A stretch of 64,000 nucleotides of DNA from Edaphochlamys debaryana (taxonomy: Eukaryota > Chlorophyta > Chlorophyceae > Chlamydomonadales), in contig JAEHOE010000055.1 of assembly GCA_016858145.1 (NCBI GenBank), positions 62,001 to 126,000 of the forward strand, given 5' to 3'. The position numbers and the translations under genes are program-made. Below are positions 34,201 to 63,492 of the stretch, piece by piece (position 1 is the stretch's first letter; the number at the start of each line of letters is the position of its first letter). The notes beneath the pieces were generated by a model. That model saw only the letters and a list, made by a program, of their open reading frames with translations, had not been told where the DNA came from and made no database searches.

Positions 34201-37200
34201 CCAGCCCGCCCAACCCCAACCCCAGCCGCTCCAAGCTCAAGCGCAGCCCCAACCACAACAGCTACAGCCGCAGACGCAACCGCAACAGCAGGCACAGGCC
34301 GCCTTCTTCCAGCCCCAGCCGCAGCCGCTGCAGCGGCCGATTCCGGCGCTGTCGTTTGGCATTCCAGCGCCGCCGCTGACGTTGGAGGCCAAGCTAGAGG
34401 CGCTGGGGCTGTTGCCTCCGCCGGAGCCGGACTTTGGCTCCCCACGGCGTCGCTCCACGTACGGAGGCACGCCGCCGTCGCTGCAGCCCCTGACGTCGGC
34501 AACACTGCAAGAGGATCAGGTGAGGAGGGCGGAATGCTGGGCACCGGGTAGTGCTTGGTTGCGGTTGCAACGAGGGGTAGCGATGTGACAAGCTAGGAAG
34601 GTTCTGGGAGGGGTCACATGAGCGCATTGGTACCGTATCCGATGGCTGGGGAGTCAGAGGCTTTCCCCTCCTGTTGCTCTTGCTGTCTGGCCGCTCACAT
34701 CCAGCGTGTTGTGCCTTTGTACACCGCCAACAGGCGCCGTACAGCCCCGTACACTACGAGCAGATCTACACCAGCAGCCGCTCCCCACCCCACTCGCCAC
34801 AGCGGTACGGCGAGCCGCAGCCCTCCGCCGTACGGACGTCGACGTACGGCAGCGCCTCGGAGCTGCCGTACCCACCCCCCGTCCGAACGTCGTTGTACGG
34901 CGGTCAGGACCGGCCCTCGTCGTACGGCGGCGCCCCGGAGCCGTCGTACGCTCGTCCGCTGCCCGCGATGCCCAAACCATCCCCGCCGCCACAGTCGCCG
35001 CCGCCGCCGCCGCCCCGGCCGCCGCCGGAGCCTGTGTCCCCGGAGGTTGCGGCGGCCGCCGCGCCGCCGCCGACGCTAACCGCCATCATCGCCACGCAGA
35101 CAGACGTGTACTCGAATGTGGTGGATCTGGATCCGATCCCACGGCCCGGCACCGTCAAGCTCCGGACCGTCGCCACGCAGGCAAGCTGCGGAACCGGGAA
35201 GATGCGAGTTAGGGGTGCCAGGTTGCCAAGGGGTGGTGGTCGACGCGGGCCCACGAGAGCCGGTAGCCGCTACTTCTACTGGAGCTCTTTCCCCAAACCC
35301 GCTTGACGCTGTGACTTACTCTAGCGTACTTGCTGCACACTCGAAGCATGTCACATGGGTTCCACCTTGTTGCGCTCAACCAACTCGGCTTTTGTTTATC
35401 CGCACCCCGCAGTGGGGCACTCTGCACGAGATTGGGACCCAGGTGGGGAGCGGAAAAGGGGCGAAAGGGGCTGGGTCGGAAGGGCAGGCCTGCAGGGTCA
35501 CGGGGCAAGAGGCCGTGTCTGAGGGGCATGGGCACGGGGCCACAAGGGGTGGCGTTAAGGGTAGAGGACGAAGAGCCGTCTTGCAAGTCTCCCTCCACGC
35601 CTCAACCCCCGCAGGTGGCCTTCAGCCCGGGCTCCAAGCAGCTGACGGAAGCGCCCCCCTACCCGACGCGTCGGCAAAACACACACACATCCCCCCACCC
35701 ATCCCCGTCTTCCCTCCCCTCTCTCCCACAGGTGGCCTACGACCCGGGCTCTGAGCGGCTGACCGAGGCCCCCCCCGAGGGCCAGGAGCCGCTGAGGGAG
35801 GCGGTGCTGCCGCCCGAGGTGCGGGCGCAGCTGGCGGCACAGGCGGCAGCGCAGGTGGGGAGCGGGGTGGGGGATGAAAGGGGGAGCGTGTGTGTTTCGC
35901 CGACGCGTCAGGGGTGTGTGGTGCGGGCGCAGCTGGCGGCGCAGGCAGCAGCGCAGGTGGGGAGCGGGGTGGGGGATTGAAGGGGGAGCGTGTGTGTTTC
36001 GCCGACGCGTCAGGGGTGTGTGGAGCGGGCGCAGCCGGCGGCACAGGCAGCAGCGCAGGTGGGGAGCGGGGTGGGGCAGTGGGGTTCAAGGTACCGGCAG
36101 CTGGCAGTCTAGGTGGTCTCAAGAGAAGGTGCTGCAAGCCTGCTCAACCGCAACACCTTCCTCTCCGTGGGGAGTCCCTTGCCTCGAGGTGCCTACGCCC
36201 TTGAGGTCGCAGATCTCAGCCCATCACTCCTTCCCCCCGGTTCCCCCAGGCCGCCCACCAGCAGCAGCTGTACGGCCCCTTTACTAAGCCGCCGCCCTTG
36301 GGCAAGAGCCAGCACTCCCTTCTGCAGGTGGGCGGGGAGGGGTGGAGGGCCAATACCGCACACCGAGTGCACAGTTGCACCGGGCTTTGGCATCGAAATC
36401 GGCAATCGGCGCGGGGCCGCAATGCTGGGGCTGTACCACTGACCCATGCACGCCCCATGCACTCATGCTGCCCCCACCAACCCACCCAGTCTGGCGCCGA
36501 CGCGCTGTTGGGCGGCGTGGGCGCTCCCCTCAGCGGCATTGGCCCCGGATTCGGGATCTTGTCTTTGGCCTTCCACTCCGTCAAGACCGCCGCCATGCTT
36601 GAGAACCTGGAGAGAAGCCTCACCTCCGCCGGCGCCGCCGCCGGGCTCAGTCATCCCCGTCACCTGCCGCCGCCGCCGTACGGCATGCCGCCGCCGTACG
36701 GGATGATGCCGCCGCCGCACGGCGTGCCGTACGGCGTGCACCCGGGGATGATGCCGCCGCCGCCGCCGGGCTGGCCTTGGCCGCCGGGTGCGCCGCCGCC
36801 GCCGCCGCACGGGGCGTCGATGCCGCCGATGGGCGGCGGCCCGGCGGCGCCGTCAGCTTCGCCGCCGCCCCCAGCGCGGCCGCCGGGGTCGGATGGCAAG
36901 GCGGCTGTGGCGGCGTACCGCGCTGCCGTCGAGGCTGCTGCTGCCGCGGCGGCGGCTGCCTTGGCGGCATCACCTAGCGCCGTCAAGCGGACCTCCACAA
37001 CCGGAAATCCCAACAACAAAGACAGCAAGGACACGTCGAAAGCCGACGGCGGTTGGCCGACAACCACCACAATCACACCTAACGCCAGCAACGGCGGCGG
37101 CGGCGGCAACTCTGGCCTCAGCCCCCGCGGCGCCCCCTCCCGCCTCCGCTCCATCTCCTTCCGCCACGATCCCAGCACTGCTGCCGCCGTGGCATCCGCC

Positions 37201-40200
37201 GCCGCCGCCGCCGTCGCTGCCGTACCCGCGCTCAAGATCCCTGCCGGCGGCGCCAGCACGCTCTCCGGCGCCCTAGACTCAACCGCCGACCTCTCCCCCG
37301 GCCGTGCGGGTACCGTACCGCGCCAAAACCCGAAACGCTCCGTCAGCATCTCGCCTGCCGTACACACGCTCGGCCCGGAATCTTCCAACGTCTATCTGGG
37401 TCGGCAGCGATCTCGCCGTTTCAGCGAGATGAGCGGCGTTTCCAACGCCTACACGGAGGCGTTTGACGAGGATGACGAGGATGCTGACGAGGACGGAAGA
37501 CCAGGGGGCGGATCCGACGAGAGTTCCCGGTCGCATGGTTCATGTGCGTCGGAGGAAGGCATCAAGGAGTCTCGGTCTCTTCGGAGCATACGCAGGTGCG
37601 GATGTGGGAAGGAAAATGATCTGGGATCGGGGGACAGCAAGCAAGTTGAAGACAAGGAGCTTATGGGGGATGGGGTAAGGAAGGGAGGGGGGGATAAGGG
37701 AGTCTCGGTCCCTGCGGAGCATTCCCAGGTGAGGGGTCGGGCGGAGAAGCTTGGTTGACGAACAAGGGCCGGGCGTTGTGGGTGGGGTTGTGGGCGGTGG
37801 GGTTGTGGGTGCGGGGTTCGAAAGACGGGAGGGCGTTGGTACCACTTGGTAAGCCTTTGCACGTGCATGTCTTTGACTTGCGTAGTGCCCTGAGCCTCCC
37901 TTTACCTCCCCGCTCTACACACATCCCTCCCACCCCCGCCCCCTTCCCCCTCGCCCCCCCAGCCTGCGCAGCATACCCAGCTGGAAGTCGAGTCGCAGCG
38001 CTCGCAGCCGCCGCAGCCGCAGCGGCGACGGGGCGGACGAGGTGGAGGAGGACTATGAGGAGGAGGAGTGGGACGAGGACGATGGTGAGGGGCAGGGTGC
38101 TGGGGGACGAAGGCCCAGACTCTGTGCCTCTCCACCCGTCCATACCTTACCTTCGTGCATGTTCGTTCATTTCCTTGCTGGCGGTCCTACGTGCTTCGCC
38201 TTGCGCCCGACATCCCCCTTTGCTTGAGGCCTGCCGCAACTTCCACTTTGTCCCCCACTCCTGCCCCTGCTGCAGACGAGGGCGCCGAGAGCGACTGCTG
38301 ACCCACTGCGCTCACCCCCTGCGCTTATCTTGCCCAGTAGCCACCCCTCACTCTTACCGCCCTGCCCCTGCTGCAGACGAGGGCGCCGAGGACGATGATG
38401 AGGTGCTGGAGGAGATCCGCTCGCGGTCCCGGTCCCTTCGCTCCATGCGCTCCCGCGTCAGCTTCCGCAGCACGAGGTCAGAGGTACCCGAGGAGGAGGA
38501 GGTGCTGAGCTCCTCGGAGGAGAAGGCGTCGAAAGAGGAGGAGGTGGGACAGGAGGGGAGGAGGGAGGGAGGGAGGTCTCGGAGGGAGAGAGGGAGGGAG
38601 GCAGGGAAGGAGGGAGGGAGGGCGGACGGGGTCTTTCGGGTTTGGGAGGGGAGGGGGGCCAGTGGGCCGCTGAGGAGGCGGCGGGGTCGCATGTCAAGGG
38701 AGGAGGAGGAGGAGGAGGCGGGGCTGTGGTGATGCCGAGTGCTCCCATCTCTTTTGTCCCATTGCGCAAGAAGAGTCTCCTGTCGGCCCGTCGCACGCGT
38801 CCAAAAGACACATGCGTCACCCCCTCCCAACCCCGTCCCTTTTTTCTCCGCCCTGCCCCCCAACCCCCGCGCCGTTGTCCCCCCCCCCCCCCCCTAAGGT
38901 GTCCGAGTCCATCCCCGATGAGGCCTCCTCGGCGCCCACCTCCTCCGACTCGTACGGCAACGCGTACAGCGAGGACTTTGACCCCGATTCAGCATCGCCC
39001 TCGCGCGCCACGTCCTTCCGCCGCCGCAGCCTGGCGGGCGGGACCAGCAGTAGACAGGTGCGGCCCCTTTCGGGGAGGTGAAGTGTCGGAGGCGGGGTTA
39101 CTAGGAATGGGTAGCGGGAACGTTCGTCCGCTCTACCTCGAGTACGACCCAAGATCCGCGTGTGAATGTCGTACGTGGGGTGAGCTCTTTGGCTCACGGC
39201 AACAGCCACAAAGACGCCCCGGACAAATCCGGGACCCTTCGGAACCCTGTCGCCCTCTTTGAGCCTGCGCCCATCTGACACCAACCCTCACACAACCCCA
39301 CCCACCCCCAACACCCCTTCCCCCCTCCAGCTTATGTCCGCCGGCTCCTTCTCCTCCCGCTCGCTGCTGCGGCGGCCCTCGGTGCTGGTGTCCACCCTGG
39401 CGCCCATCACATCCAGCCGGGAGGAGGGCTTCGACGCGCGGGGGTCGTACGACCTGTCGGCGGGGGCGGAGGGGGAGGACTCCGGGCCCATGAGCCCGGG
39501 GCAGCAGGCCAGGTGGGTTGTGTCGGGGGCGGGGGTGGGTGGGTGCGAGAGCGGACCGGGAGGAATACACAGCAGGGACGAGCGGGGGATGGTAGTTGAG
39601 AACTTGAGATCGGGGCTTGCTTGGATAAAGCTCATGGGAGTTAAGCTTGGTTGTGTGAGGCAGGGTAGCAGTGCGGATGTTTTTTGCCAAGCTTCATTCT
39701 GTGACCATCCGATTGCTTGGCGGTCCGGTTCCCCAGGAGCCCGAGCAGGACCGCGCTCAACCGCATGGGCAGCATGATCCTGAAAACCTCATCCGGATTC
39801 AAGCGTACGGCATCCATCTCGATCACCATGGCGGACGACCCCATGGCGCCCAACCAGATGGAGCGCATCATGCCCGTCGTACACACGCCGACGTACGGCA
39901 GTGGCGGCGGTGGAAGTACGGCGGCCGGCGGCCGACCCACATCGGCTGGCGGCGCAAAGGAACGGCCGGCGTCGCCGTACGGCGGTGACCGCCGTGTTTC
40001 CTTCGGCGGAGGTGACCCCAAAGAGTCCAAAGCGGAAGCCGCCGCAAAGGCAGCGGAAGCCAAGGCGGCCGCCGAGGCAAAGGCAAAGCAGGAGGAGGAG
40101 GCAAAGGCGAAAGAGGCGGCAGCGGCAGCGGCGGCGGCAGCGCAGCAGGCTCAGCAGCAACAGCAGGCCTGGGGCCCCTGGATGGGCTACCCGCCGTCGC

Positions 40201-42398: not shown

Positions 42399-43032
42399 GC
42401 TGCAAGGAGGTGAGCCGTACTATGGCGAAAAGAACAAAGCTGACGATGTGGTAGCGTACGTGGCTGGGAGTAGAAGACATGGCTGGGCTGTGATGACGTC
42501 CCGAGTTCAAGGGACCAAGGGGTAGAAGATCAAGTGCTGCTGCGTCTGACTTCGGCCATGGGATAGCGCGTTCTATTCCGCTCCTCTCAGTAACCAGGAG
42601 TATGCAATGTGTGGACTGCACGGAAAGCCGTCAAGACGCCGCACGTCCAGCTGCCGGGTACCAGCCGCCAGCAGCCGGGTACCAGTTTACTGTAAACCCT
42701 CCAAAACCGCTGAAACTCTTGGACTGCCTAACGGGGTTGATAAACAACTGCTGGTCCCTAACTCGGCCCAGCTTTGGCCCACATACAGCGGAACAGCTGT
42801 CGCCTGCAACCGATACCGAAGTGGGCACAGGCACAAACATTCCCCATGCCGACTCCACTGCTGAAACTCGACACTTGGCGCGCAATGGGGCGGGGGGGGG
42901 CCTGTACGGCGTACGGAGTCCCCTCTGGAGACTAGTTAGCACTCGTGAGGCATTTAGTCCCTCTGTGGCCTTCGCTAAGTGCTTGCCGCGATCTAGAAAT
43001 CTAACAAGAGCTGTGTCCTGTTGCTGGGCACG
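42399..43032. other. Spacer: large-gene 3' UTR and LOX B promoter
   Basis: Contains the 3' UTR of the large gene, then the presumed promoter and leader of LOX B. A 21-nt tandem duplication (CCGGGTACCAGCCGCCAGCA, about one and a half units) lies at 42655-42686. No other gene was seen. Confidence 0.5.
42691..42695 (+). terminator. Candidate poly(A) signal TGTAA for the large gene
   Basis: TGTAA lies about 290 nt past the stop codon of the large gene on its coding strand, a typical chlorophyte arrangement. Confidence 0.5.
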
Positions 43033-46000
43033 ATGCCGGCATTCTTGGGCAGCAACAGTTTCGCAGGCTTGCAGGGCCGCGCATACGCTGTTACGAGTAG
43101 CGTGGCATCATGTCGGCCGGCTTCTCACAGCCGGCGGAGTAGTGTCGCGGTTCCACGCTCATCAGGCTCCATTCGCTCTGCTGCTCCGCCGCCTGTGCGT
43201 GGCCTTCATACTACTGCCGCCGCTGTCGGCAGCGGCAATTCAAGCCCTGAGGACCACGAGGACCGCTCTGGAAGCTTGACATGGCAATGCACAGTCACGT
43301 CGAGCGCGCCGCTCCAGCCGTGAGTGACGATGCTGCAAGGCTAGCATGGCAATTAAGCTGATTAGGAATCCCGAGGTTGAGTAGGTACCGGCGGTTTGAA
43401 CCAACCGTCGGTCAAGTCGCCCCAACCGCCATCCATCCCCCCGCCGGTGCATGTCGCCCGTGCTACCTTGTTCTTAAGTAGCCCGCCCCGCCCGGCCCCC
43501 CCCACGCTCGCCCCCCGCCTTACCGCTCCAGTGGTACGGGCAAGGGGATACAGATTGTTGTCATCAATCGTGTGAGCGATATCCGCTCGGACCCAATGAG
43601 CATCGACTCCTGGCGCCCGCCGGTTGTCAACCCCAACCCGGATGGGACAAGGGGCTGGCGCCGCTCCGGCCCCATCACGCTGCCCGCGTCCGTCTCGGAG
43701 CCGGGTGCCGTACTCATCCGTACAGATCGCGATAAACACGGCCACGCGACTGTGGAGTACATCGGCACTATTGAGCTAGCGAGGTGTGCCGTACGTTGTG
43801 CATGTGCATGCCGTGCATCTCCCGATGGCTGCATGCAAAGCCCTTGCCTTCCTGCCTCACTCCTGAATTTCTTTCTCCTGCTCTCAACCACACCTCCCTC
43901 CCAATTGCCCGCCGCATGCAGCTCCACCCAGATCGTCGGGCTCACCGCCAACTCGTGGGTGTCGTCGGACCAGGGCTGGCGCACCTTCTTCATCGGCGGG
44001 GCCTTCTTGCCCAAGGACACGCCGGAAGCCATGTTGAAACTTCGCAAGGAAGAGCTGGAGAAGCTGCAGGTGCGCGCTTACGTGGCGGTTGCAATAGGGC
44101 GTGAGCTTGATGGCGGGGGGCGGGCGGCGGCGTGCAATGGGCGCCCCTTTTGGGCTTGCGCAGTGTACAGCAGCAGCAGCAGGCGCACCACATACCATCA
44201 CTGCCCGTCCACCGCAGGGGGATCGCACAACACGCAAGGAGAAGCGCCTGCCAAGCGACCGCATTTACTGGTACCAGGTGCGTGCGTGCGACCGCGCGCG
44301 AGTACTGCTACCAGGGTGGAAGGCAGGGGTGAGAGAGGAGTGATCGAGGGGACTCCCGGATTCCTGGCTCGGGGGGCTTTGCATACGTACGGAAGAACGT
44401 TATCCGCTCACACGCCACCCGCCCGCCACCCTTGCAGCGGTACGACGACCTGAGTGCCCCCGGGAAGCCGCGGCCCCAGCTGGGCCTCGATGATGCCGGC
44501 GAGGGCCTGCCCTACCCCCGCCGCCTGGCCACCAACCGCGGCCTCGAGCCCGGCAGCGACGACCGCGAGATCCCGCCAGCCGATGGCGAGTCCATGTGGG
44601 TGCCCTTTGGTAAGTGTGCCGCTGCATCGGTGCATGCATGGAATTGTCGGCTGGCTCGCTCAGTGGTAGAGAGATGCCGTACGTACACTGCCGTACAATT
44701 CCACATGCAGACGAGCAATTCAGTGCGCACAAGGCTTCCGATTTTTCATCGACCGCCGTCAAGGCAAACACCGCTCGCTTCTATGCCCGCTACATTCTTC
44801 TCTTCGGTAGGCCCTTTCGCGATTTCAACAGCGTGCTGAGTGTCTTCAAGGTGAGGCACAGCAGGTGGTACGTGTAGCACGTGTGCTTCAACGATATGTA
44901 CCTGTGTGACCATATCATCATCTCATTAATCTCATCATACATGCTCGATCTCAGGATGACAGCGGCAAACAGGCATCGCCATTATCGGACAATGACATCG
45001 ACGCTTTCGAAGCCTTCCGTGAGTGTGGATGTAGAGAAGGAGTGGTAGATGGGCTAGATGCATGTTGATGACGTACTGCAATATGTGCGGATGTGTGTGT
45101 GTGCCCGCGCACCTTCAGGTGCTTGGGACCTCCTGAACACTGCTGAGGACTCGGCCGCCATCTACCAGGCCATGATGGCTGATCGCATGGGCTCGTCCGC
45201 TAGCAGGGCGGCTGGTCTGCCGCCAACCCCTGGACTGCTAGCAGCAATCTCAGAAGACGAGGCGGAGGACACGGACAGGGCCTTCTTCACCAACATGGCA
45301 GCGGACGGGCTGAGGAGCATGGGCATCATCAAGGAGCCGCGCTTTCCGGTACGTACGTACCGAAGCACCTACCCCCGCCCCGCCCGCCCACTGGGGCACC
45401 TAGGGCACCCCGCCCCCGCCCCCGGCCCCGCCCCCCTCACCCCCGCCCCGCCGTTGGTTTAAACCATACAACGCCGCTATCGCGCCGTGCGTATTTACAC
45501 ATACACTTCGCGCGCGCCCGTCGCAGGTGCCCAAGGTGTTGGCTGGCCGGCTAGATGCCTGGGACTCAGACGAGGAGATGGGCCGCCAGGCCCTGGCCGG
45601 TATGAACCCCGTAACGCTCAAAGCCCTGTTCAAGACGCCTGAAGACCAGGGCTCCGCCATTCGCGATGTGCACATCAACGGTGAGTGTTGGGGTTGGGGC
45701 AGGAGGGGGGGGGTAGGAGAAGTTGCTGCTGACCTCATGCCTTCTTTGGGCCCCCCACCCCCTGGAACTGTACGGCAAGGAGTTTCTCAGTACGGCAGTC
45801 TTTCTTCTTGTGGTTCTTGACGGACTCTACATCATTGCGCCTTTATATTCAGCGTAACCTTCGGACGCTGGTAGCTGAAGCTGAACAATGTCCAGCCCGA
45901 ACGACATGTCCAGACAAGTCCGGACCATTGCAGAAGCCGCATTACTGATAAATCCACTTGGGGATGCTTGCTGGATCTTGCATCGCTTGAAGAACATGCT

Positions 46001-49000
46001 CGCTCGGCGGCGACTCCGTGGAGAACATGCGAGCGTGGTCGCGCTTCACAGCCGTGTAGCAGGACGTAGTGTTGAAAGCAGTTGGTCCGCGCAAAGTCGG
46101 GGTATAGCTTCCCGTCTACACCAAACAAAAGAAGAAGAAATAACAACTAGTGAGAGCGGAACGTGCTAAGCGATAGGAATGCCGAGGGCTGTCGCTGATC
46201 AGCTTCACCGGCGACGGCGACTTTGGTTCTTTCTCGGACCCCCACCCCCCGGGGCGCCCCCCAACCCTCCCCTTCGCAAGTCTCGAGCGAGGCCAACCTG
46301 CCAAAGCGAGGGGTTCCAATGTGACTTCGCCGCTTCACGTGCAGAGGATGAAGACCTGCAGGGCGCCACGCTCGCATCTTTGGTCGCGGACGCGAAGGCG
46401 GGCAACAAGCCCCGGCTGTACTGGATCGACCACTGGGCGCTGGGCGAGTGCTGGTCCGAGGCGGGCAAGGCGCAGAACGAGGAGGGCAAGAGGGTGCAGC
46501 ACGCGGGCCGCGCGCTCTTCTACCTGCGCAAGTGAGCCTGCTGAGGAAAAGCCTTGCTTGGCTGGGTTAGTTTGTGGCCATGGATACTTGTGTCATGATA
46601 TGCTCCTGGATGGACGGATGGCCGTGGCTAGTCATTAGACCCACACTTTCCCCCCCCGGCCTAGCTTTCTTCCATACATACATGTTGCGAACTCTCATCG
46701 TGTTGCGAACAGGGACCCCGAGAACGGCGACAGGGACGCAGGCCTGGTCCCCATTGCCATCGAGCTGGCGCACCCCAACACCCACCCCATGAAGGAGGGG
46801 ACGAGAGAGACCCACGGTGAAGTCTACTCCCGCAGCCAGCTGAAGGGCGACAAGCGGGTGGTGTGGACGCTGGCCAAGGCGGTGTTCCGCTCCCTGGACG
46901 CAAGCGTGCACCAGGTGTGTAAGTATGTACGGGCGGGCGGAGGGGTACGGCAATAGATAGGGGCATGTGTACGGTAGCGGCGCGGTTTGCACGGTGCGCG
47001 CTTTGTGCATGCCGGCCGCCCCACTTGCTATTGCTCCTTCGTGCCCCTCGCCCGCCCGCAGCTCGACTCGCACTTCAACCGTTCGCATGCGATGCTGGAG
47101 CCCTTCCTCATCGCCATGCGCCGCAACATCAGCTGCATGCACCCCGTGAGTGGCCCCATGCATGCGGTATTGGGGAAAGAGCGGGGTTAGTTGGGCAAGC
47201 GGGTCCCTGCAACTCATGTGACGTGGGTTTGGCGCAGGGCAGCTTGTGGGGGCATCAATGTTGACAGCCATCCGAATCTGGCCCTCATCAACCATTAATC
47301 CAGTATCAGGCGAGCTGACAACCCCCACACCCTGGCTCCGAAACCTCTCAGGTCTTCAAGCTCATGCTGCCGCACTTCCGCTACACCCTCGACATCAACC
47401 GCAACGCCCGCTCGAACCTCGTCAACGCGCCACGCGGAGGCCTCTTGGGCGGCGGCATCATTGAGCAGGCCTTCTCGGCGGGCGAGTACGCCATGCGCCT
47501 GGCCGCCAAGCTGTACGGCGCCACGTGGACCTTCGCGGGCCAGGCCCTGCCCAAGGACCTTGAGCGCCGGTGCGTGCGTGCATACCCGGGCGCGCGGGCA
47601 ACGACTGCAAACGCCCCGCCGCACGGGTTGAGTCAACGCAGCAGGCCTTGTGATGCCTAGTCTCAGATATCGATCCCGCCGGTTTTGCTTGCCAGGAACA
47701 TTCTGCTAAAAAAGGACGAGAAAGGCAAGCTGATGAAGCCCTACAAGCTCCGCTGGCTGCACTACCCGTACGCCGAGGACGGCCTGCTCATCTGGGAGGA
47801 GCTGGAGAAATACTTCGACGAATATCTGCGGCTGTACTTCAAGTCAGACGATGCCGTGGCGGGTGACAAGGAGCTGCAGGCCTGGTGGGCGGAGGTCAAG
47901 GTGGGTTCATGGGTCGCTGGTCGGGTGGTAGCTAGCTAGGTAATGGGAGGGAGCGAGGATGGGCTCACGGGTCGGCGGGTCAGGTGGAGCGGACTTGCTT
48001 GCGGTAGAGGTATTGGAGGCCAGTGCCCGGAGCCGCTGCTGCTTTGCGCCTTCTTTCCCTATCCAGCCCATACAGCCCTGGCTGCATGCCGTTAACCGCC
48101 CCCGCCCGCCGCCCCCAGGCCGAGGGCCACCCCGACGCCAAGCTAAGCGGCCGCGACGAGGAGCAGGTGTGGGGCTTCGAGGGCCCCATCCCCTCGATCG
48201 ACGAGCTGGTTCAGATCCTGGTCACCATCGCCTACATGGCCTCGGCGCACCACGCCGCAGTCAACTTTGGCCAGGTGAGGCGGCGGGGAGTCATGACTGC
48301 GCGCCAGCAGGGCAAAAGGGGGGAGGTACGTAGTTGTGCTGCTGGGAAGGAGGCAAGGCCGGATCCGGTAGGTGGGCACGCAAGTGTCTGATCTCTCCTC
48401 TCCTCTTCATCAGGCCCATGCATCCACCTACCTACCAGCCATGCCTTCCCCACGTACGCCCTCTTCCCTCTCTCGCCCGCAGTATGACTATTCCGCGCTC
48501 ATCCTCAACAACAGCTCCCTCATCCGCCGCCACATGCCTGTCAAGGGGACACCGGCCTGGGACGAGCTGGTGGGCGCCCGGGGCAACGCGCAGGAGAAAG
48601 TCTTCATGTCGTACTTGGTGGACTCTGAGTCCGCGTTTGCGGTGAGTCATTGAGCACCACACAGATGGACGCACATGCAACCAAACTTGACGGCCCCTCA
48701 TCAAACCTCTATCTCTTCTCACAATCGACAACCAACCACACATCCCGAAACCACCACCGTCAGGTCATGTCCATCATCAGGCTGCTGTCGAGCCACGCGC
48801 CAGACGAGCAAACCCTGGAGGAGCTGAACGAGTACCTGGTGGTGAGTCACACCCAGGGATGGCCAAGGCAGTGTGAGGGGCGGGAGGGCGGAGTAACGGG
48901 TCAGGGTGTTGGCTGAGGGCGAGGCGTACGTAATGGACATGCAGGAGAGCTCGTGCTGTGGTGGTGGGGGGCCTTGACAAGACGCTGCCACAGCCACAGC

Positions 49001-49289
49001 CACTGGCCGGGTGTGCACCCCGCACGCGTGCTGAGCGTGCTGCGGGCTGCAAACCCGTCGCCCCCCGCAGGACAAGCCCGCCGTGGAGGCCAACGCTCGG
49101 TTCGCGGCGGCCATGAAGGTCGTCGAGGACACCATCAAAAAGTCGAATGCGGATCCTGCCATGTGGGCGCGTTACGGCCTGGAGCCGCCAGCGAATGGCG
49201 GCGCGTCGCCGCTGCCGTACACGCTGCTGATGCCCAGCTCTGGCTCGGGCATCACCATGCGCGGCGTGCCGTACTCCGTCAGCATCTGA
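43033..49289 (+). CDS. Lipoxygenase B (PLAT + lipoxygenase domain, 18 exons)
   Basis: Paralogue of LOX A, predicted at 1,004 residues with every splice phase consistent. Exons: 43033-43319, 43532-43783, 43922-44069, 44218-44277, 44438-44609, 44711-44850, 44955-45018, 45119-45348, 45527-45680, 46345-46531, 46713-46914, 47062-47145, 47352-47569, 47696-47900, 48119-48274, 48483-48641, 48764-48841, 49071-49289. The leader (MPAFLGSNSFAGLQGR, Ser/Arg-rich) suggests plastid targeting. The PLAT-like domain spans exons 1-3. Iron ligands are intact: SHFNRSHAMLEPF, ASAHHAAVNFGQYDY and a terminal Ile (GVPYSVSI). Unlike LOX A, the arched-helix segment carries a 7-residue insert (PRGGLLG, 47430-47450) right after the Ala of the stereocontrol site, so substrate handling may differ. 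The intron 45681-46344 is much longer than its LOX A counterpart. It lies between the large gene and that gene's truncated copy. Confidence 0.93.
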
Positions 49290-49759
49290 GCGCGCGGCGT
49301 GGCGTGCGGTGACTGGCGGGCGCGGGGAATTGCTGAAGCCGGCTTGGAGGGCGGAGACTTGGCGAAGCTTTTGGAGACACCGTGCTTGTGTTATCATTTT
49401 CGCATGTGCGCGTTGGCTTGGGGCGGTAGGGCTTATGGAGCGGCCAGGGAGGACCATGGGGACCGGTTAGGCGCGCGTCGCTGGCGGGATAAGCGAGCGG
49501 TGGTGGCGGTGACCATGTGTGTGACAAGAAAGTAGAGACTCTACACGACAGACGCACAACAACTCTTTCGCGTTTGGGATCCCAAATCCCATCCGGGTTC
49601 CACCCGGATGGTGGCGGCCAGTGGGTGCGGAATAGCTGTCGTCGGGTGGGGGCTGCCCGTACACACGGCGAGCTCGGGGTGGTAGCCTGTTGTTTTGGAG
49701 ACTGGGAGGACTTGACTCAAAGGCTCCGGGTTCTGGAGGGCTGTGATGACGCCATCAGG
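49290..49759. other. LOX B 3' region with two adjacent palindromes
   Basis: Presumed 3' UTR of LOX B. A perfect 14-bp palindrome TTTGGGATCCCAAA (49573-49586) is followed by a hairpin with arms ATCCGGGT and ACCCGGAT (49591-49609). I found no TGTAA up to 49760, so the poly(A) site is unplaced. Confidence 0.45.
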
Positions 49760-50423: not shown

Positions 50424-52364
50424 AGTCGCCAGGCATGGCTTCCGACTCTTTCGACTGACCACAGCATCAGCGGCCTGTCGACGGATAACAGCATCGACCA
50501 TGACGATGCTCCGCCAGCTCGCGCGCCCCCGGCGGGTCGCGCAGGCGCTCCGGTCGCTCGGCAGTCGGCATCAGCGTCGGCAGGGAATCGCAGCGCCCAG
50601 CCTGCGGCCAAAGCCTCAGACTCGTTCGAGCTTTCGGCGTCGGGAACCATCGATCTGTCAGGATCATTGGAGATAGACCACGGGGCTGCCCGCCTCTCGG
50701 CCCCAGCGCGCGGCGGAGGCGCCAGCATCCCGCGCCCCGCCTCCCGCGGCAAGCCCCCGCCGGTGTCAGGTGCGTCTCGGGACCGCGCGCATGGCTCTGC
50801 CTCTAGCACGTAGAGAAAGAAAGCCTTGTATGTGGCGGCCGATGACACCCCCATTGCATCCCGCTTTCTGGTGCCCTGTAGTTAGCCGGCCGCGCTAGCC
50901 ATACTGATGGACCGTCACCCTCTTCTCGTGACCTATCTTCAGCCGCAGCCGTCCTCCCGCGCCACCGCCTTCCAGCGCCGGACGAGCAGCATGCACGCTA
51001 AGACCGCAGCCATACACACACAGCCGGGTGAGCCGGCGGCGGCTGCTGTAGCTGCGGCGCCGTATGGCCCGGCATACGGCCTGCGAGGTGGCGGTTTCGG
51101 CCTGGGCGGACCGTCCATGATTCCCGCAACGGTGAGAGGGGGGTCGTAGTCAGGCAGGATCGTCCCTGGCCCGCGGCCCTGCACGCCCTTCCCTTTCCCT
51201 CTGCCCTGTGCACCTCCTCTCCTGCCTGCCTTTCAGCAAGGGCAACACTGTAGCGCGCCTTCTCCCTCTGGCCCCCGGCCCCCGACCCCCGACCCTTGTT
51301 CTTGTCCCCCAGCCTCATCCTCCCAACCGCCCTCTCCCCTCCCTTTCCTCCATCCCATCCCCCCCCACCCCGCCCCACCAGAGCACCTTCTCCCGCCTGG
51401 GCAGCACGCTTGCCTGGGGGGCCTACCCCGGGCTCGACCCCATGTCGGTGCGGACCATACGGCGGGACCTGGTCAACACGGCGGCCGCGATATCGGGTGA
51501 GGGAACAAGGGGGGCACACGGTGTAAGGGGAGTCAAGGGAGGCGGTACGGTACCCTGGCCGCGACCCTCTGCCCTCCGAGCCCTTCACCACGCGCACCCC
51601 CGCCCTACACCGTCACGCCTCCCCCACCCACCCAGGCTCCATTGGCTACGAGGACATTGTGGCAGAGGCGGGGGCGGCGGACGAGTACCGGGCGCAGCTG
51701 GCGCGAGTGCGGGCGCGCCTGGCGTCGGCGCGGGCGGGGATGCCGTCGGTGAGAGAGGGCCGGCCGGCAACAATAGCTGCGGCCGGCAGCGCTAGCTAGC
51801 AGGGAGACTTGCAGGGCTTCACGGGCGGGCTGCTGGATCAAGTTTTGCCGGGGGAGGCCGGTTGCGTTAAGTATCCGACTCGTGTTTTTGCATGACTTTG
51901 ATGTGCCCGGCCTCTCGGTCTGCGCACAGGTCCTGCCCAGCCAAGACCGGGAGGTCTACCTCTCCCGCCCCATCCGGCGGCCGGCAGGCCCCGGCTCCGG
52001 CCCCGGGGCAGCGGCAGGCACGCCGTCGCCCCTACTGGCGGCGGCCGCAGCGGAGGTCACGGCGGCAGCGGCGGCGGCGGAGCTGCGGGCAGCTGCGGCG
52101 GGGGTGGGAAGCCAGGGGGGCGCTGGGCGACTCAGCAGCACCGGAGCGGGAGCGGGGGCCGGGCTGGGGCTGGGGCTAGGCGGAAAGCTTGGGAGCACGG
52201 GCGCGGGGCTGGGGCTGAGGTCCGCGGCTCCGCCGCCCAAGATCAGCATCGTCGGGTACGGCAGTACGGCACCCGGGTCGTACCGCTACACCACGCTGGA
52301 GGACACGCGGCGGCTGATTGAGTCCACGCGGCCGTACACAGCGGTGCCCGTACGGGCAGGTTGA
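50424..52364 (+). pseudogene. Internally deleted copy of the giant gene
   Basis: The start region matches 28228 onward, but a net 2-nt loss turns the first codons into ATG GCT TCC GAC TCT TTC GAC TGA, so the original start is dead. Homology continues to about 50890 (matching about 28745), then resumes at about 51020 with sequence matching about 40820, so roughly 12 kb of the parent is missing. The last four exons are well preserved: to 51131, 51382-51496, 51637-51748 and 51930-52364 (stop TGA). An ATG at 50907 could open a shortened protein of about 290 residues that keeps GLDPMSVRT, IGYEDIVAEAGAADEYRAQL and the C-terminus, so expression is not excluded. Confidence 0.7.
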
Positions 52365-53742
52365 GCTGCACGTGTGGCAGTTACACGTGGGCCGGAGTAC
52401 GGAGGGGGAGGCGAGCAGGGGCCGGGGGTTGGGAAACACGTAATGACGGAAGGGAGGCCCAGGGGTGGTACCAGCGAGGGGTGTACGACGGGGCAGGCAT
52501 TCATGGGGCAGGCATTAGGCAATGTGGGTCAGCGGTTACCATCAAGGCTTCCTTGCGTGGAGCTACGAAGCCCGGCTGTGGGCGGCGAGCATAGGTGGGG
52601 TACAAGGCTTTTGCGCATGGCAAGGGGTGGGTCAATGCAACATGCAGCTATCCGGCTAATCCGGGTCAAGGAGGTGGTGGCTGCAAGTGCGCTGTGGTCT
52701 TGCTTGCTTGTTCCTGCCTGTCGCTCGGCCTCTCCCTCTTTCTGTTGCGTTGCGCACAGCCTAGTTGCGTTCAGCTGCATCTCCCTTCGTCGTCGTCCGG
52801 ACTACGCTGCACGGCCCCTGCGAGCATAGATTCCCCCCAATCGCACTGGCATGCATTGGGGGCCCTGGCCGGCCCTGCCTCAAGGCCAGCTGCGTGTCGG
52901 ACCGTGATTTGACCGTACTGTCTGGACGTGAACCCGCCAGCCGTGTCGCCCTGCACTCCCCGACTGGTCCCCGGGCCGTGCCCTTGCGCACTCGCTTGCC
53001 TGGCACCCCTGTTCTTAGCCCTGCACTCCAGGCTAGGTCCATCTAGGCGCCCTCCCTTCGGCCCTGCACAGATCTGCGGTTCCTCTTGGCGCCCCAATGT
53101 GGCGCCCCCAAACCGCCCCAGCCCAAATAAACCGGTTCGCCCCCACCCCCCAGCCTAGCTGGCAACTGACGTGCTTAACGACAGCCAGGGCAGCTGCCAC
53201 CAGGGCCCAGCCCAGATAAGCTGCAGAATGACGCCATACAGACCCGCTATCCGGATCTCCGGATATGAAGCTGAAGGCCGGGCGGCCTTGCACACGCTGA
53301 CAGGCCCCCAATGACAGGCAAAAGGCAACATGCAAGCCAAGCACAGCACCGATAGCTTACAAACGACGGGCTCGTGCGCTTGCCCCGCGCGAAACCCGTC
53401 AGCACGTTGTCAGCGGTTCTTGTCACCGTGACCATGTCTGCTAGCGTCAGGCCTACCTATCCCTTGCCCCCAGCCCGCCCCACGCATGTCCCTTGGCTCT
53501 GCCGTCAAAGTCTCATCCACATGAGCGGCCTAGCACAGGCCACACCGCTCTGTCAAGGCATCGTCTCGGGCGCCTCCCCGCCGAGACAGGTGCCGCCTGC
53601 CCCGCAGTGCCCTTAACCCTAACTCCCCCGAGGCCTCCCCCCCATGCGCCACTCTCCACCGGTTATCCACCCCCGAGCTGCTCCTGCTGTGCACTACGGC
53701 CTCCTCCGTGCTCCAAGCGCCAGGCCGCTGGCTAGCTGTTGC
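52365..53742. other. Spacer downstream of the truncated copy
   Basis: No recognisable reading frame. The sequence does not obviously match the spacer after the parent gene (42399-43032). The right end is the 3' UTR of the minus-strand UEV gene. Confidence 0.5.
53357..53361 (-). terminator. Candidate poly(A) signal TGTAA for UEV
   Basis: TTACA on the plus strand reads TGTAA on the minus strand, about 380 nt past the UEV stop codon at 53743. Confidence 0.5.
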
Positions 53743-54165
53743 TCAGTACATGGTGCCCTCGGGCGGCTGCGGCAGCTTCCGGTTCGAGGGCGAGGACATA
53801 TCCCGCCTGATCTCCGTCAGCAGCTGCTCCAACGTGTATTCGCGCTTCCAGTTGCCCAGCATGACGAACTTGATAGGGTCTACGCGCCCGTCGCGCTGAT
53901 CCACACAAGCCAGGTTGATACGCGACTTGAAGTGGACCTTCGGCGCGCACTCCGGGTAGTTCAGGTCGCAGTGAATCTTCAGCGAGTAGATGCGCTGGTC
54001 GTGAGCGGTGTTGGGCGGCCCAATAATGGTCCCGGTCCAGTTCCTCATGTGGATGTCGTCTGGGTCCTCCATGCCGTAGGACACGGTGCCATCACCAAAG
54101 CCCTTCTCTCCACGTTCTAGCTCCTCCAGCAGCCTAAAGGAGCGCGGTATGGGGACCCCGGCCAT
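53743..54165 (-). CDS. UEV1: Ubiquitin-conjugating E2 variant, UEV1/MMS2 type
   Basis: A 140-residue, single-exon frame from [20 protein letters not shown] to PEGTMY. The whole sequence fits the UEV family: [50 protein letters not shown] and [15 protein letters not shown]. The position of the E2 active-site cysteine is not a catalytic Cys-containing HPN motif, as expected for variants, which pair with Ubc13 to build K63-linked ubiquitin chains in DNA-damage tolerance. Length is normal and nothing is broken. It is the only clearly full-length gene here without introns. The bases just before ATG read CGCAGA, so a 5' UTR intron ending there is possible. It is divergent from the GST gene, with 577 bp between start codons. 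The symbol is by family, not orthology proof. Confidence 0.93.
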
Positions 54166-54742
54166 TCTGCGCGTAGATTCGGGGCTTCTGAGGGCAAGCT
54201 ATGGGCACCTTGTGGAGTAAGGGAGTGTGCTGTGAGCGCCTGTATGCGTGCAGCGCCCGTGTCTACGCAGCGCCGCAGCCCAGGGCGCGCCATCGGGGCT
54301 TCTGGCCCATCCCGGCGCTGGGCCCCAAACACCGCCGTTCCCGCGTGCTACAAGGGCTCTGGCATCTCTACATCGCGCCTAGCAAATTGGACGCGCGGAG
54401 GAACCGGTTCTACGCCAGAAAGGGTGCGTGTCGGTGCGCATGCCGTCCCGGCAGCTGTTGAAACAGACCCCGAGCCCTGCGAGCCACCCCAGCCACTCTC
54501 GCTGAAGCACCAGAGAGCTGGGAAGGCAGCGCGATAGACGGCGAGGACGCTGGCGCGGAAAGGCGTGACGGGGCGTGTCGAAGCCTTGCGTGCCGTGCCG
54601 CCTGTCGAGAGCCCCCGTTTGACCGACCGCTCCTTTGCAAGAGTTTCCAACCCCCCCGGCTTTCTTGATCCTAGATCCCTTAACCTCTCGCAAATTCCTT
54701 CTCCCGTGCACCTCAAGAGCAGAGTTGACTGCACCGCCGGTC
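54166..54742. promoter_or_regulatory. Divergent promoter region between UEV and GST
   Basis: A 577-bp gap between two diverging start codons must contain both leaders and promoters. No TATA box or named motif is convincing. Confidence 0.4.
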
Positions 54743-57700
54743 ATGGCCACCGCCGGTCTGGGCATGGCGCCGACGGCGGGTGCCGACGGCAGCCCAGCTG
54801 TACGGCTGTACGTGGACTTGATGAGTCAGCCATCCCGTGCCGTCGTCATCTTCGCCAAGTGAGATTGCGAGCACTGCGGGCTGACAGATTCTGGTCAGGG
54901 TGCACAGGCCCCAGGTCCCAGCAACCCCTGTGGTCCGAACACGCGGGTCGCAGGAAGGGGGTCCGAAGGCAGTGAAGCACTTGCGCTCGGAGGTCTTTGC
55001 CCTTTGGGGCGCAGCTCAGAACCTCTTCAGGTGCCGCATGAAGCCAAGATCCGGATCCCAGCCATCCCCCGGGGGCCGGGGCTCAAGGCCACGGCCCAGC
55101 GGCCATGGGCCCCTCAGGGCTATGCGTTCCACCCTCGCTCGCTCGGGTCCCAGGGACTGGCTTCACCCCCTTCACCCCTTCACCCCTTCCACCTTACTGC
55201 AACCTACCGACCTACCGTGCTGCAGGATCAACAAGCTGCCGGTGGAGGTCAGGAACGTGTTCATCCACAAGGGCGAGACCCGCGCCCCCGCCTTCCTGGC
55301 CATCAACCCCATGGGCAAGGTGCCGGTGAGTGGGCAGCGGTGGGGAAGGGGGAGGAAGCGAAGTCACAGGCGAGACCCTTGCTGGAGCATGCTGAGACGG
55401 GCAAGGTGCCGGTGAGCGGGGACTGAGACGGCGCGTGGTGGCTGGGGGTCGGTCGGTGGTGGCTGGGGAGGGGGCAGGGGGGGATTTAAGGGCGAAAGAG
55501 GGGCGCAGTCGGCATGGGAGCTGGGCCGGAGAAGGGCGGCAGTCGTCCCCCTGGGGCAAGTTGGGGGGAGCGGGCAAGAAGCCGGAATGGGGTATCAATG
55601 TGTGGATGCTTACATACCCGTAAACCCGGTTAAAGCGGCAGGGCGCAGAGACGGGGTGTGGGAAGGGGGAAAGGGGGGGGGGGAGAGGGCAGGGGAGGGG
55701 CGGAGGAGGGACGGGGCACAAGTGATCTATCTGGGCTGGGCTGGGGATTCAGGCCCCGGGGCAAATGCCGGTTAGCGGGCAGCGGGGTGGCAGAGAGGGG
55801 GCAGGGGGTCGTGCAGGGGCGAGCAACCAGGAGTTGGCGAGGGCAGGGAGGGGGACGCACGACAGCGAGGTCTGGGAGGGGTCAGGAAGGGCAGAGAGGG
55901 GCAGGGAGCACGAGTTACAGATAATAGAGATCGACAGGTCTTGAGAGGAGTGGCATTCCACTATCAGGGGGAACAGGGGGATCAGCGAGGCGCAGATGAG
56001 GGCAGGAAGCACGGGTTATGGGAGGAAAGCGCGGGTGGTAAGAGTAAGGGAGCCGCATGTGGGGTACCTGGGGGCGAGTCGAACGCAACCAACCCGTCAC
56101 TCCCACCACTCCAAGCTCCCTCTCCAACCTTGCTCCCCCCCTTGCTCCCCCACACCCTCCCTTCACCCCCACCCCATCCACCCACGCCCCCCCCCTCAGG
56201 CCCTGGAGGACACCCGCCTCTCGCCCCCCCTGTGCCTGCCCGAGAGCGGGGCCATCATGGGGTACCTGGCGCGCAGCTTCCCGGACAGGGTGAGGCGCCG
56301 GGGGTTGCGGATTGGGTTGGGGATTGGGTCTGGTGGATCGGATTGGGTTTGAGAAATTGGGATTGGGGATGCCGGGTTTGGGATTTGGGAGACAGCGCAA
56401 AAGCAAGAGGAGCCCTTGGCCGTGGAGTTGGTTCCGGCCAGTTCCGGGGTTGGGAGGGCGAGGAGGAGACGCACCAACTGCTTTGTGGCATCCCCTCACC
56501 TTTCCCCCGCTCCCCCCCCCCTCAGGTGCCCGAGCACTGGTTCCCCCGCGCCGACCCCGCAGCCGCTGCCCGCGTGGAGTCCGCCCTGCACTGGTACCAC
56601 GGTGGGGGGGGGGCGTGTGTGCGGGGGGGGAGAAGGGGAAGGGGAAGGGTGGGGGGGAGGTTATGCGTTTGTGGCGTGGGCGGGGTTTCCACGGTACCAC
56701 GGTGCGGGGGGAGCAGGGGGGGGAGGGGGGAGAAGGGGAAGGGGAAGGGGAAGGAGGTGAGGGAGGCCATGTGTATGTGACGGAACCACGGGCAGCAGGA
56801 GCCAGCCAGGGCCAGCCACGGGGGAGCTTGGTTTGGCAGGTGGCCTCTACGCGGGCGGGGGCGGGGGCGGGGCGCGGAGGAGGTGGAAGCGGAGGTGGCG
56901 TTTGGGACGGGGCGTGGGGCGTTATGTATCATGGACTGCAGGTAAGTAGAGTACAGTGTGAGTGAAGTGGGCTCTGCACTGGTGCCGCGGTGGGTGTGCT
57001 GACAAGAAGGTGGGTAGGGAAGGCGGGAGGGTAGGGACGGGGGGAGACGGGGGGCGGGAGGCTGCGTGTGGCCGGGGTGGGGTTTTATGTGGAATGACAC
57101 AGCATGGTCAGAATGTGTGGCATGAGCTGCTCGCTGTCGGTTGGCCCTCACTGGTGTATCGAGTTGGCCCTCACTGGTGTTACGGTGGGTGGGGGAGGCG
57201 GGGCTGGGGAGGGGGGAGGGGGAGTGAGGGGTTGGGGAGGGGAGTGAGGGTTGGGGAGGGGGAGGGGGAGGGGGAGTGAGGGTTGGGGAGGGTTGGGGAG
57301 GGGGAGTAAGGGGTTGGGGAGGGTTGGGGAGGGGGAGGGGAGGGGGAGGGAGGGGGAGGGGGGGGAGGGGAGGGGAGGGGAGGGGAGGGGAGGGGAGGGG
57401 AGGGGAGGGAGGGGAGGGGAGGGGAGGGGAGGGAGGGGATGGGAGGGGAGGGGAGGGGAGGGGGAGGGGGAGGGGGAGGGGGAGGGGAGGGAGGATTGAG
57501 AGGGTTGGGGAGCGGGAGGGGTAGTGAGGATTGAAGCGGGCTGGGGAGGGCGAGGGGAGGGGGAGGGGGAGTGTAAATCGGAGAGGGTTGGGGAGGCGAG
57601 GGGGAGGGGGAGTGAGGGTTGGGGAGAGTTCGGGAGGGACATGCGGTGCAGGCGGGAGCGGGGGCGCGGGGTGAGCGGGCGTGGGGGACTGTTCTGGAGG

Positions 57701-59452
57701 TTGGCGAGGTTGGGCGGCAGGGAAGGGGAGAAGGGATGGGGCGTCGGGAGTAGGGTACCGCTGACGTGGGGGTAGGGGACGGGGAGGGGGCGTGCGGCAG
57801 CGGAAGGGGGGACTGTGTAGAAGAGGGGGGTATTAGGGAGGCGGCGTGCGCGAAGGGTACGCTAGGAGGATATGACAGTTGGAGCGATCGGGTAAGACCT
57901 GAAGCAACCCCGGGTGTTGGCTTGGCCGGGGGCCTGCATTGAAGAGCCCAAGGCATGGAGGGTCAGCGAGATGGAGCGAGAGGGAGCGTCGGGGGTTCCG
58001 CAGGCTCGACCCACATCAACTGACCCCGCCCCTCCCACCCCTTCCATGCCCCACCCCACCCCCCGCCCCCACCCCAGCCAACATCCGGATCGGGGCCATG
58101 CGGCTCGCGTGGAACAAGGTGGGCGGCCTTCCCCCGTGTACCGATGTGGATGCTTTGTAACCCAGACCTGTATGGCTCAGACCCTAAGGCTGGGGCGGCC
58201 TTACACTTGCCCCGGCGGGGCATATGGTCACCCCACAAAGACCCAGGCTCTTAGGGCAGGGTGGCGATACGCTCGTGCCCGCGTGGCCTCTCCCTCCGAC
58301 CCCCAGGTGGTTGCGGGCATGATGGGTCAGAAGGGCGATGACGCGCTCGCGGCGGACGGTGCCAAGGTGCTGCAGGTGAGGGGGAGGGCGGGGGAGGGGG
58401 AGGGAGCGTGTGTGTTTTGCCGACGCGTCAGCCAGGGTGATGGGGCGCTGGCGGCGGACGGGGCCGAGGTGCTGATGCGTCTGAGCTCATGCGTTTGCCA
58501 GGGCATCCTCAGCCCCCCAAATGCGTGCATCTGCCCTTCTTGCTGCGCGCCCCCGCCCCCCGCGTCCTCTTCCCAGTGTCCCGAGTTGTGCCCGTGGACC
58601 GACTTGTGCCCGTCACACCCTCCTCAAACCCCTCCTCAAACCCCTCCTCACACCGTCCCCAACTCGTCCTCCTCACCCCCTTCCCCCGTCCCTCCTCCCC
58701 AGATGGCCCTAGCCAACCTCCAGGCCGTGTGGCTGGGCAACGGCTCGCGGCGCTTCATCGGCGGCTCCCAGCCCTGCGCCGCCGACCTGCTGTGCGCCTG
58801 CGAGCTGGAGCAGCTGCAGGTGGGTTGGCGGTTGGGAGTTGGGAGTTGGCGGTTGGCAGCGCTTAGCTAGATTGGCGTCGTGAACCCGTTGACTGCAGAC
58901 AGACAGACAGATGCTACGGGTGTTGACCCAACCCGCACGCTCCGTAAGGGCCAGAGTCGGGGAACACCAAGGACTCAGATACGACAAGCTCTCCAACATC
59001 ACCTCCATGGAATCATAATCCAGAGGCATAATGCAGAGGCTGGGTGGAGGGTAGTGCGGTCAGGGAGGGATTGGTGCCTCGCTCGCGGAAGCCGACCTCA
59101 TTGCCTCAGTGCCTCATTACGATAGTTGCAGTATGAGTGAAAAGCCTGGTCCCTGAAGCGGACCACGGCGACAAACCACGCGCGAACCCTCCGTGTATGA
59201 TGCGTTGCCCGCCCGGCCTCCCTCGCACCTGTAACTGGTACCCCCCCTCACCCATGCCAACCCCACCCCCCGCAGCTCCTGCGCAAGGAGGCGCACGGCA
59301 CCTCGCTGGACGAGATCCTGACGCCGTACCCCGTCGTACGGACGTGGCTGGACGACGTACGGCGCACGTGCGGGCCCGAGTACGGCGAGGGCCACAAGGT
59401 GCTGGGCGTGGCGGTGGCGGCGCAGGCAGCCAAGGCCAAGGCCAAGATGTGA
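54743..59452 (+). CDS. Theta-class glutathione S-transferase (8 exons)
   Basis: Predicted 261-residue cytosolic GST that conjugates glutathione to electrophiles. Exons: 54743-54858, 55226-55325, 56200-56289, 56526-56601, 58078-58118, 58307-58375, 58703-58819, 59276-59452; all phases agree. The N-terminal thioredoxin-like half has LYVDLMSQPSRAVVIFAK, with the Ser of SQPSRA as the expected theta-class catalytic residue, then NPMGKVPALED (cis-Pro region) and ESGAIMGYLA (glutathione gamma-glutamyl contact Glu-Ser). The helical C-terminal half has RRFIGGSQPCAADLLCACELEQL, a standard GST motif, and ends in a Lys/Ala-rich tail (AAKAKAKM). Two introns (55326-56199 and 56602-58077) are inflated by decayed copies of the preceding exon's donor edge and by a G-rich tract. 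An introner-like element follows exon 6. Substrate unknown. Confidence 0.93.
56583..57195 (+). repeat. Serial decayed copies of GST exon 4 donor edge
   Basis: Exon 4 ends GCCCTGCACTGGTACCACG|GT (56601). Related strings recur in the intron after it: ACGGTACCACG|GT near 56692-56703, GCTCTGCACTGGTGCCGCG|GT near 56970-56990, and two GGCCCTCACTGGTGT copies at about 57143 and 57167. This indicates repeated local duplication of the exon edge and its 5' splice site. Confidence 0.65.
57186..57640 (+). repeat. G-rich polypurine microsatellite in GST intron 4
   Basis: About 450 nt of (GGGGA)n-like sequence on the transcribed RNA strand, purest at 57340-57490, with interspersed GTGAGGGTTGGGGAGG units. 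Runs of four or more G at short spacing make G-quadruplex or triplex formation likely in principle. Confidence 0.9.
58376..58431 (+). mobile_element. Introner-like element, copy in the GST gene
   Basis: 56 nt directly after GST exon 6, beginning GTGAGGGGGAGG and ending GACGCGTCAG, with the core GTGTGTTTTGCCGACGCGT. It is followed by a diverged second copy of the exon 6 end (GGCGCTGGCGGCGGACGG, about 58442-58475), which has no usable donor, so the working intron runs on to 58702. Confidence 0.6.
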
Positions 59453-63358: not shown

Positions 63359-63492
63359 CATACGTGCGTGTCGCTATGACGTTGAAACGGTCCCGCCCGA
63401 TCGAGATCTGCCAGCACTACCGGCGCCTCTCCAGCGTATCCTGGGGCCACGTCCAGAGGGGGAGGGGGGGAGGGGGAGGGGGCATAGGAAAA

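Follow-up and report, generated by a model that had tools for sequence, protein, structure and literature searches.

A short core sequence recurs beside duplicated exon edges in Edaphochlamys debaryana and may spread by break repair

In a stretch of 64,000 nucleotides from the green alga Edaphochlamys debaryana (GenBank assembly GCA_016858145.1, contig JAEHOE010000055.1, positions 62,001 to 126,000 of the forward strand; hereafter the window, numbered from its first letter), a short sequence, the core GTGTGTTTYGCCGACGCGT, lies behind G-rich tracts next to predicted splice sites of different genes, with the exon edge repeated beyond it. The same core recurs throughout the genome. Our reading, to which we give a probability of roughly 45%, is that a core of about 20 to 24 bp spreads by break repair, in which the core and some of its flank would be copied and the broken end rejoined about 80 bp back. 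A sequence-only reading of the window had described the copies as introner-like elements, that is, as segments that themselves form introns; its picture of dispersed copies that lie at splice-site-like edges and have duplicated exon edges beside them has held, and its identification of the family as introners has not.

Core copies in the window lie beside duplicated exon edges

The core had four matches in the window at up to three mismatches, every one of them exact, and none in any of 100 shuffles. Two of them were found by pattern search on the plus strand of a large gene, where the donor-side exon edge (35818..35854) is followed by the predicted donor GT and G-rich tract of a first unit (35855..35889), the first core (35890..35908), a copy of the exon edge (35920..35956; identical at 35 of 37 positions), a second G-rich tract (35957..35991, belonging to a 102-nt repeat family, D16) and the second core (35992..36010). 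A third unit of this repeat (36022..36123, plus strand; 61% to the reference copy) holds, by eye, an exon-edge copy and a G-rich tract without a core. At the acceptor side of the same exon, the edge (35732..35776, plus strand) aligns to a predicted intronic copy (35615..35659, plus strand) with a score of 45, and an exact core lies inverted at 35666..35684 (minus strand), its G-rich tract being the C-rich tract before the predicted acceptor. The fourth exact core (58410..58428, plus strand) belongs to the GST gene, where it follows the predicted donor GT and G-rich tract of an intron (58376..58409) and where the exon edge (58332..58372) has an imperfect copy at 58434..58474, all on the plus strand. 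On the minus strand, the VASt gene carries a damaged core (GTGTGTTTCGGCACGCGT, 11902..11924) behind a G-rich tract, and its exon edge (11965..12013) is repeated with two deletions at 11857..11896. The names GST and VASt are labels taken from the sequence-only reading.

That reading had placed the copies directly after exon ends, beginning with GT, and had seen a duplicated piece of exon edge beside each strong copy; our reading of the copies and the aligned pairs in the large, GST and VASt genes bore out both observations. The VASt copy that it reported (11899-11965, minus strand) is real, with its core in damaged form. Of its inverted relatives, one contains the exact core at 35666-35684, and the other (38792..38827, minus strand) is a weak, decayed relative behind a G-rich tract, at which no convincing exon-edge copy was found (best alignment score 15). 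As a separate observation, a core stands at both edges of single predicted exons, with the G-rich sides towards the exon, in the window (35615-36123), at G000:C59:56388/56604 and at C164:57679/57868.

The core is dispersed among unrelated genes

We searched the whole genome (141.89 Mb in 502 contigs, the window lying on the contig numbered C55) and found 142 exact cores (65 with C and 77 with T; controls 0). At up to two mismatches there were 303 matches against 5 for the reversed-pattern control. A sister core, GTGTGTTTCGTGACGCGTSGG, had 235 matches at up to two mismatches (control 0). The sequence GYGTGTGTGTTTYGCC occurred 158 times (control 1) and the full 24-mer 69 times. The G-rich end followed by GCGTGTGTGTTT (GGRRGCGTGTGTGTTT) occurred 155 times (control 1) and was followed by NNCC in 30 cases, so the GT-TTT part precedes several different cores.

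In total, 150 copies with up to two mismatches were read at 105 sites, the fetched sequence holding 125 of the 142 exact cores. The same core was common to 95 groups whose flanks are unrelated. In these copies, which were found by a search for the core, one end lies at a GT run and the other is of varying length. To look beyond the exact core, we fetched 20 places lacking it, chosen among 100 of the 158 GYGTGTGTGTTTYGCC occurrences, and an exon-edge copy was seen at 9 of them (score at least 24, a threshold without a control). Three of these loci (L110, L111 and L118) have a G-rich tract and an edge copy behind a core shortened after GCC, and in two others (L100 and L101) the end of the core is changed.

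A single core was present at 81 of the 105 sites, and two or more tandem cores at 24, some with near-identical units. The tandem sites would suit an origin by minisatellite slippage at G-rich intron ends, with gene conversion between genes, and so would the sites that paralogous PDR-type genes have in common (see below). A minisatellite made of tandem units only does not describe the family, given the 81 single-core sites, and one core in 95 flank-unrelated groups goes beyond what slippage alone would give; an exon-edge copy is moreover present in 33 of 80 single-core sites. We consider slippage with conversion an improbable account of the family as a whole. At G000:C106:54058-79780 exact minus-strand cores are spaced by 8,608, 8,612 and 8,502 bases, suggesting that a large gene or module is repeated there in tandem.

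Exon edges are duplicated at about half of the sites

To detect edge copies, the 70 nt before the splice edge were aligned to the 120 nt after the core, with a threshold taken from 2,080 mismatched comparisons (their 99th percentile). This test uses the exon side only and replaced an earlier one that included the G tract, in which 14 of 79 single and 49 of 63 tandem copies exceeded the 99% control. An edge copy passed the threshold at 53 of 104 sites (33 of 80 with a single core and 20 of 24 with several). About half of the sites thus show the order exon edge, G-rich tract, core, filler, exon-edge copy and, mostly, a second G-rich tract; a stretch of at least half G followed 44 of the 53 edge copies. 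The filler between core and edge copy had a median length of 11 nt (range 0 to 56), and the stretch between the beginning of the duplicated edge and the core had a median of 82 nt (middle 80%, 62 to 96). Among the 42 copies that reach the edge, 36 keep the splice dinucleotide. An acceptor at C94:275966 has an edge copy that is identical at 37 of 37 positions. Mismatches along the exon copies showed a weak gradient (5-7% down to 3%), which was not used.

The direct repeat with an insert at its junction, as in a tandem duplication, is therefore present in 53 of 104 sites. A transposon with terminal inverted repeats, or a miniature inverted-repeat element, was rejected, since one end of the family varies in length and the duplication spans 62-96 nt instead of being short and fixed. 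The locus-specific edge copies, with substitutions of their own in many unrelated genes, also argue against an assembly artefact or adapter-like sequence, for which we found no support and which we regard as having a negligible chance of being right; the number of very similar tandem units could be mis-assembled.

The G-rich side mostly faces the exon at either predicted intron end

Most copies read carry, upstream of the core, a G-rich tract about 30-60 nt long. In the antisense direction, the AG of an acceptor reads CT. A search for the edge at the start of the tract gave GT in 46 of the 95 flank-unrelated groups, CT in 45 and neither in 4, so that sense copies at predicted donors and antisense copies at predicted acceptors are about equally frequent; this tally is weak alone, the same search finding, among the 105 sites, GG in 102, AG in 96, TG in 96, GA in 92, GC in 90, GT in 81 and CT in 73. 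The orientation of the splice edges therefore rests on a test of codon preference on the exon side, using a preferred-codon list for Chlamydomonas-like genomes that was not derived from this one. At GT sites the preference was forward in 31, backward in 11 and tied in 11, and at CT sites it was backward in 36, forward in 7 and tied in 5, with 4 of the 105 sites lacking an edge. The preference matched the edge call at 67 of the 85 decided GT or CT sites and conflicted at 18, some of which look like misplaced edges. Coding scores at 104 sites had a median of 0.64 on the side facing the G-rich tract and 0.35 on the far side. These results suggest that the element lies mostly within introns, near one end or the other, and turns its G-rich side to the exon. 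At one further locus (L051, G000:C29:559361) the core stands beside a fold-back repeat with arms of about 100 nt, by eye away from an exon edge.

The core and edge copy appear to be part of longer introns

In three genes, predicted exons when joined matched a Pfam domain across the join, with an edge copy in the intron between them: HDAC (exons FCYVNDIVLAILELLK to YHARVLYVDIDVHHGDG), UCH (LSNLGNTCFMNSSLQ to CLAHTVPLMRAFLGG) and kinesin (INRSLLALANCINALGKTNAG to GKSAASYVPYRNSKL). Since the domain continues across the predicted exons, the core and edge copy of these genes would lie inside a longer intron. The GST gene of the window has a similar layout, and its GST_C_2 domain scored alike without and with the exon copy (20.3 and 20.1 bits, both below the cut-off of 24.9). 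Joined PDR and CBS exons gave no Pfam match, and an acetate kinase peptide matched its domain within a single exon, which serves to name the gene only.

These predicted exons bear directly on the introner interpretation, in which the stretch from GT to AG would itself be a new intron. Many copies in unrelated genes (95 groups), the GT start of donor-type copies and the CAG directly behind the core in three window copies all fit it. Across the family, CAG directly behind the core was found at only 13 of 108 sites, so the AG end that had been taken as a family trait proved not to be one. Nor is there a single orientation relative to the gene, 46 groups being donor-type and 45 antisense acceptor-type; the antisense copies stand beside predicted acceptors, and a GT...AG intron therefore cannot be read there. 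Together with the domain continuity in HDAC, UCH and kinesin, which suggests that the ends of the element differ from those of the spliced intron, these counts led us to reject the whole-intron introner, and we hold it to be very improbable. The stretch thus looks like a portion of an intron rather than a whole one. At G000:C2:3509921 (L002), CAG|GTGG is found in the duplicated piece to either side of the insert, and by eye the frame runs on; with AG|GT in the duplicate, a new intron made by the insert is conceivable at this locus.

A few neighboring sites share sequence behind the core

Tails behind the core were mostly unlike one another at the 108 sites compared, and they contained no common body sequence. 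Among flank-unrelated pairs, shared tails were more frequent in those within 100 kb of each other (n = 120) than in the others (n = 5,192), with 7 against 23 pairs at score 7 (Fisher p = 3e-6), 6 against 11 at score 8 (p = 1.2e-6), 3 against 5 at score 9 (p = 6e-4) and 3 against 2 at score 10 (p = 1e-4). When labels were shuffled, the three near pairs observed at score 9 were reached in 1 of 400 shuffles.

The best pair joins the GST copy of the window to an unrelated gene at G000:C55:141407, 20,997 bp away. The stretch in common (58393..58462, plus strand; 71 aligned columns, 86%) comprises part of the G-rich tract, the core and the sequence behind it. Its pair score was 19, compared with at most 11 in 50 shuffled sets, and comparison of a 5-kb GST stretch with the 3-kb C55:141407 locus gave no further blastn or tblastx match. 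With the last letters of the core included, the C55:141407 tail is identical at 25 of 28 positions to the GST exon copy and at 21 of 28 to the GST exon, which points to the exon copy, and not the exon, as its source. Most simply, the gene at C55:141407 would have received the core together with a piece of the GST copy, and copying of this insert from another locus is well supported by the alignment. The same is suggested for two C2 sites 24.6 kb apart, which have a common 26-mer found nowhere else at up to three mismatches, and for a cluster of C10 sites, whose tails are alike (CGGGGYGGGCAC-like).

The tails also help to weigh a very short retroelement, in which a nick at a GT/CA run next to the G-rich tract would prime reverse transcription of an RNA ending in ...GACGCGTCGGCRAAACACAC; synthesis would stop early, and a long gap between two nicks would give the 80-bp duplication. 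Insertions of non-LTR (long terminal repeat) elements and of SINEs (short interspersed elements) can have a GT-run junction, a variable other end and a target duplication, and the family resembles them in having one end at a GT run, another of varying length and duplicated target sequence. A GT run is also found inside some right-hand duplicates (C20:191529 and C108:217996), and the same genome contains a SINE-like family that begins at a like GT run, described below. Against this alternative, most tails read diverge directly behind the core, and reading the copies turned up no longer version, the only extension being the 26-mer of the two neighboring C2 sites. The denser sharing of tails between neighbors is also unlike such an element, and a pre-mRNA of the GST gene, had it been the source, would presumably present the wrong strand as template. 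We regard a retroelement as unlikely on the whole, yet as the strongest of the rival readings.

The SINE-like family is dispersed and begins with GTGTTTAGGATGCGTAGGG at a GT run (L095-L099; L016, near the core; L047, 2287-2369). In 40 matches scored of 166 candidates it was 91-100% identical to the query, and by eye it has a 15-bp target duplication in L099 and is nested in the GT run of the core in L016. An 83-nt sequence common to L016 and L047 had been considered as a longer parent of the core and was rejected; it belongs to this separate family. A search of five loci against Rfam gave nothing that reached gathering scores.

Paralogous transporter genes appear to combine inherited and new copies

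The exon end after the peptide FMDEPTSG had ten matches in eight genes, which we take to be PDR-type ABC transporters; two of the matches are exon-edge copies. A core with 0-2 mismatches lies at this donor in six of the eight genes. The gene on C73 has a weak remnant of the core at the donor, and the one on C94 has none there and one at the acceptor. The introns of the C29 and C52 genes can be aligned by eye, and their core probably goes back to a common event. The exon-edge copy of the C55 gene carries that gene's own substitution (TTTATGG), so, barring a later conversion, it would be younger than the separation of these genes. The series seems to reflect both inheritance and new events, perhaps along with gene conversion.

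A possible break-repair mechanism

We infer from these products a DNA template, a break or stalled fork as the trigger, and copying that resembles synthesis-dependent strand annealing followed by end joining. A break or fork stall at a G-rich tract would leave a 3' end made up of Gs and GT repeats, able to anneal to the similar end of another copy, in many cases one nearby. From this DNA template the core and some flank would be copied, and end joining about 80 bp behind the break would yield the order edge, tract, core, filler, edge copy and tract. Each event would lengthen the intron by about 110 bp with a predicted message that is unchanged, because the splice site is duplicated along with the exon edge.

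Several observations weigh against this reading. No edge copy was detectable at 51 of the 104 sites, nor was one seen at 11 of the 20 places without an exact core. Full cores stand without a G-rich tract at C34:191515, C57:176503 and C125:162138, and loci L105 and L117 have an edge copy and no such tract. The tail evidence is sparse: 114 of the 120 near pairs have no shared tail at score 8, and 4 of the remaining 6 fall in a single cluster of four C10 sites and cannot count as independent. Part of the copies, as in six of the eight PDR paralogues, is explained by inheritance or gene conversion. A fixed core in hundreds of copies exceeds what random repair filler would be expected to give, and the core must have some advantage to be so common; its constancy is partly made by the search, copies having been found through the core. 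Finally, in the helq-1 study of Caenorhabditis elegans, G-quadruplex breaks gave deletions, and the duplications arose elsewhere, according to the parts of that paper available (PMC8654963).

A further step would be to regard the family as a self-spreading parasite of repair, with a core of 20-24 bp that has no ends, genes or enzyme of its own and that hijacks break repair at the G-rich tracts of splice edges. We put this forward tentatively, as a possibility less probable than the copying itself. If it were true, each event would duplicate an exon edge with its splice site, and introns would have been lengthened at hundreds of places with their messages unchanged. The repair model, if right, would imply that a sequence can be mobile without a transposase or a fixed second end. 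Intron growth and splice-site duplication are usually inferred from old, blurred remains; here many events have readable junctions, and some edge copies are still identical to the exon. This makes it possible to test whether G-rich intron ends are sites of breakage, whether a nearby repair template is preferred and whether the duplicated splice site is used.

Relation to known systems

In the literature searched, consisting mostly of non-subscription papers with supplements excluded, we found no description of the core family. Introns can arise when a piece of an exon is duplicated in tandem, a process that works through AG|GT. In the sections available of a paper on this process (PMC4974935), an exon piece is duplicated as it is here; our family differs in having a dispersed core in the junction and a host intron that extends beyond it where tested. 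Introners, too, are similar short sequences found many times over at the splice sites in unrelated genes, some families with a duplicated target, and the accessible text of a 2022 survey names target duplications of 3-9 bp (Gozashti et al. 2022, PMC9860276). Our sequence seems to be a portion of an intron, occurs in both orientations, comes with a duplication of about 80 bp and seldom has CAG behind the core. As far as it was available, the main text of that survey makes no use of the word Chlamydomonas, and the word introner is likewise absent from the accessible text of the E. debaryana genome paper (PMC8226300).

The tandem duplications of helq-1 C. elegans, as described in the available parts of that study (PMC8654963), range from about 100 bp to 10 kb with a median of about 1 kb and occasionally have templated insertions at the junction. 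They are alike in forming a direct repeat, at times with such an insert, but their inserts are private to each event, whereas the core found here is one and the same in hundreds of copies at G-rich tracts. Near splice sites, direct repeats at the edges of introns have also been reported (Rogers and Bendich 2025, PMC11782384); in the portion of that work available they measure 4-30 bp across unrelated introns, in contrast to about 80 bp around a shared core. As for the non-LTR elements and SINEs considered above, the differences are that no longer copy or body sequence was found among the copies read and that some flank is shared between neighbors.

Other features of the window

Inverted matches of 76-92% link two regions of the window, 16047-21777 and 43491-49304. 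The matches keep the same order and lie 22-33 kb apart, and the two regions are likely to be inverted copies of one gene region. A short array of 24-nt units occupies 63453-63692, and a large array of 31-nt tandem units begins at 61083.

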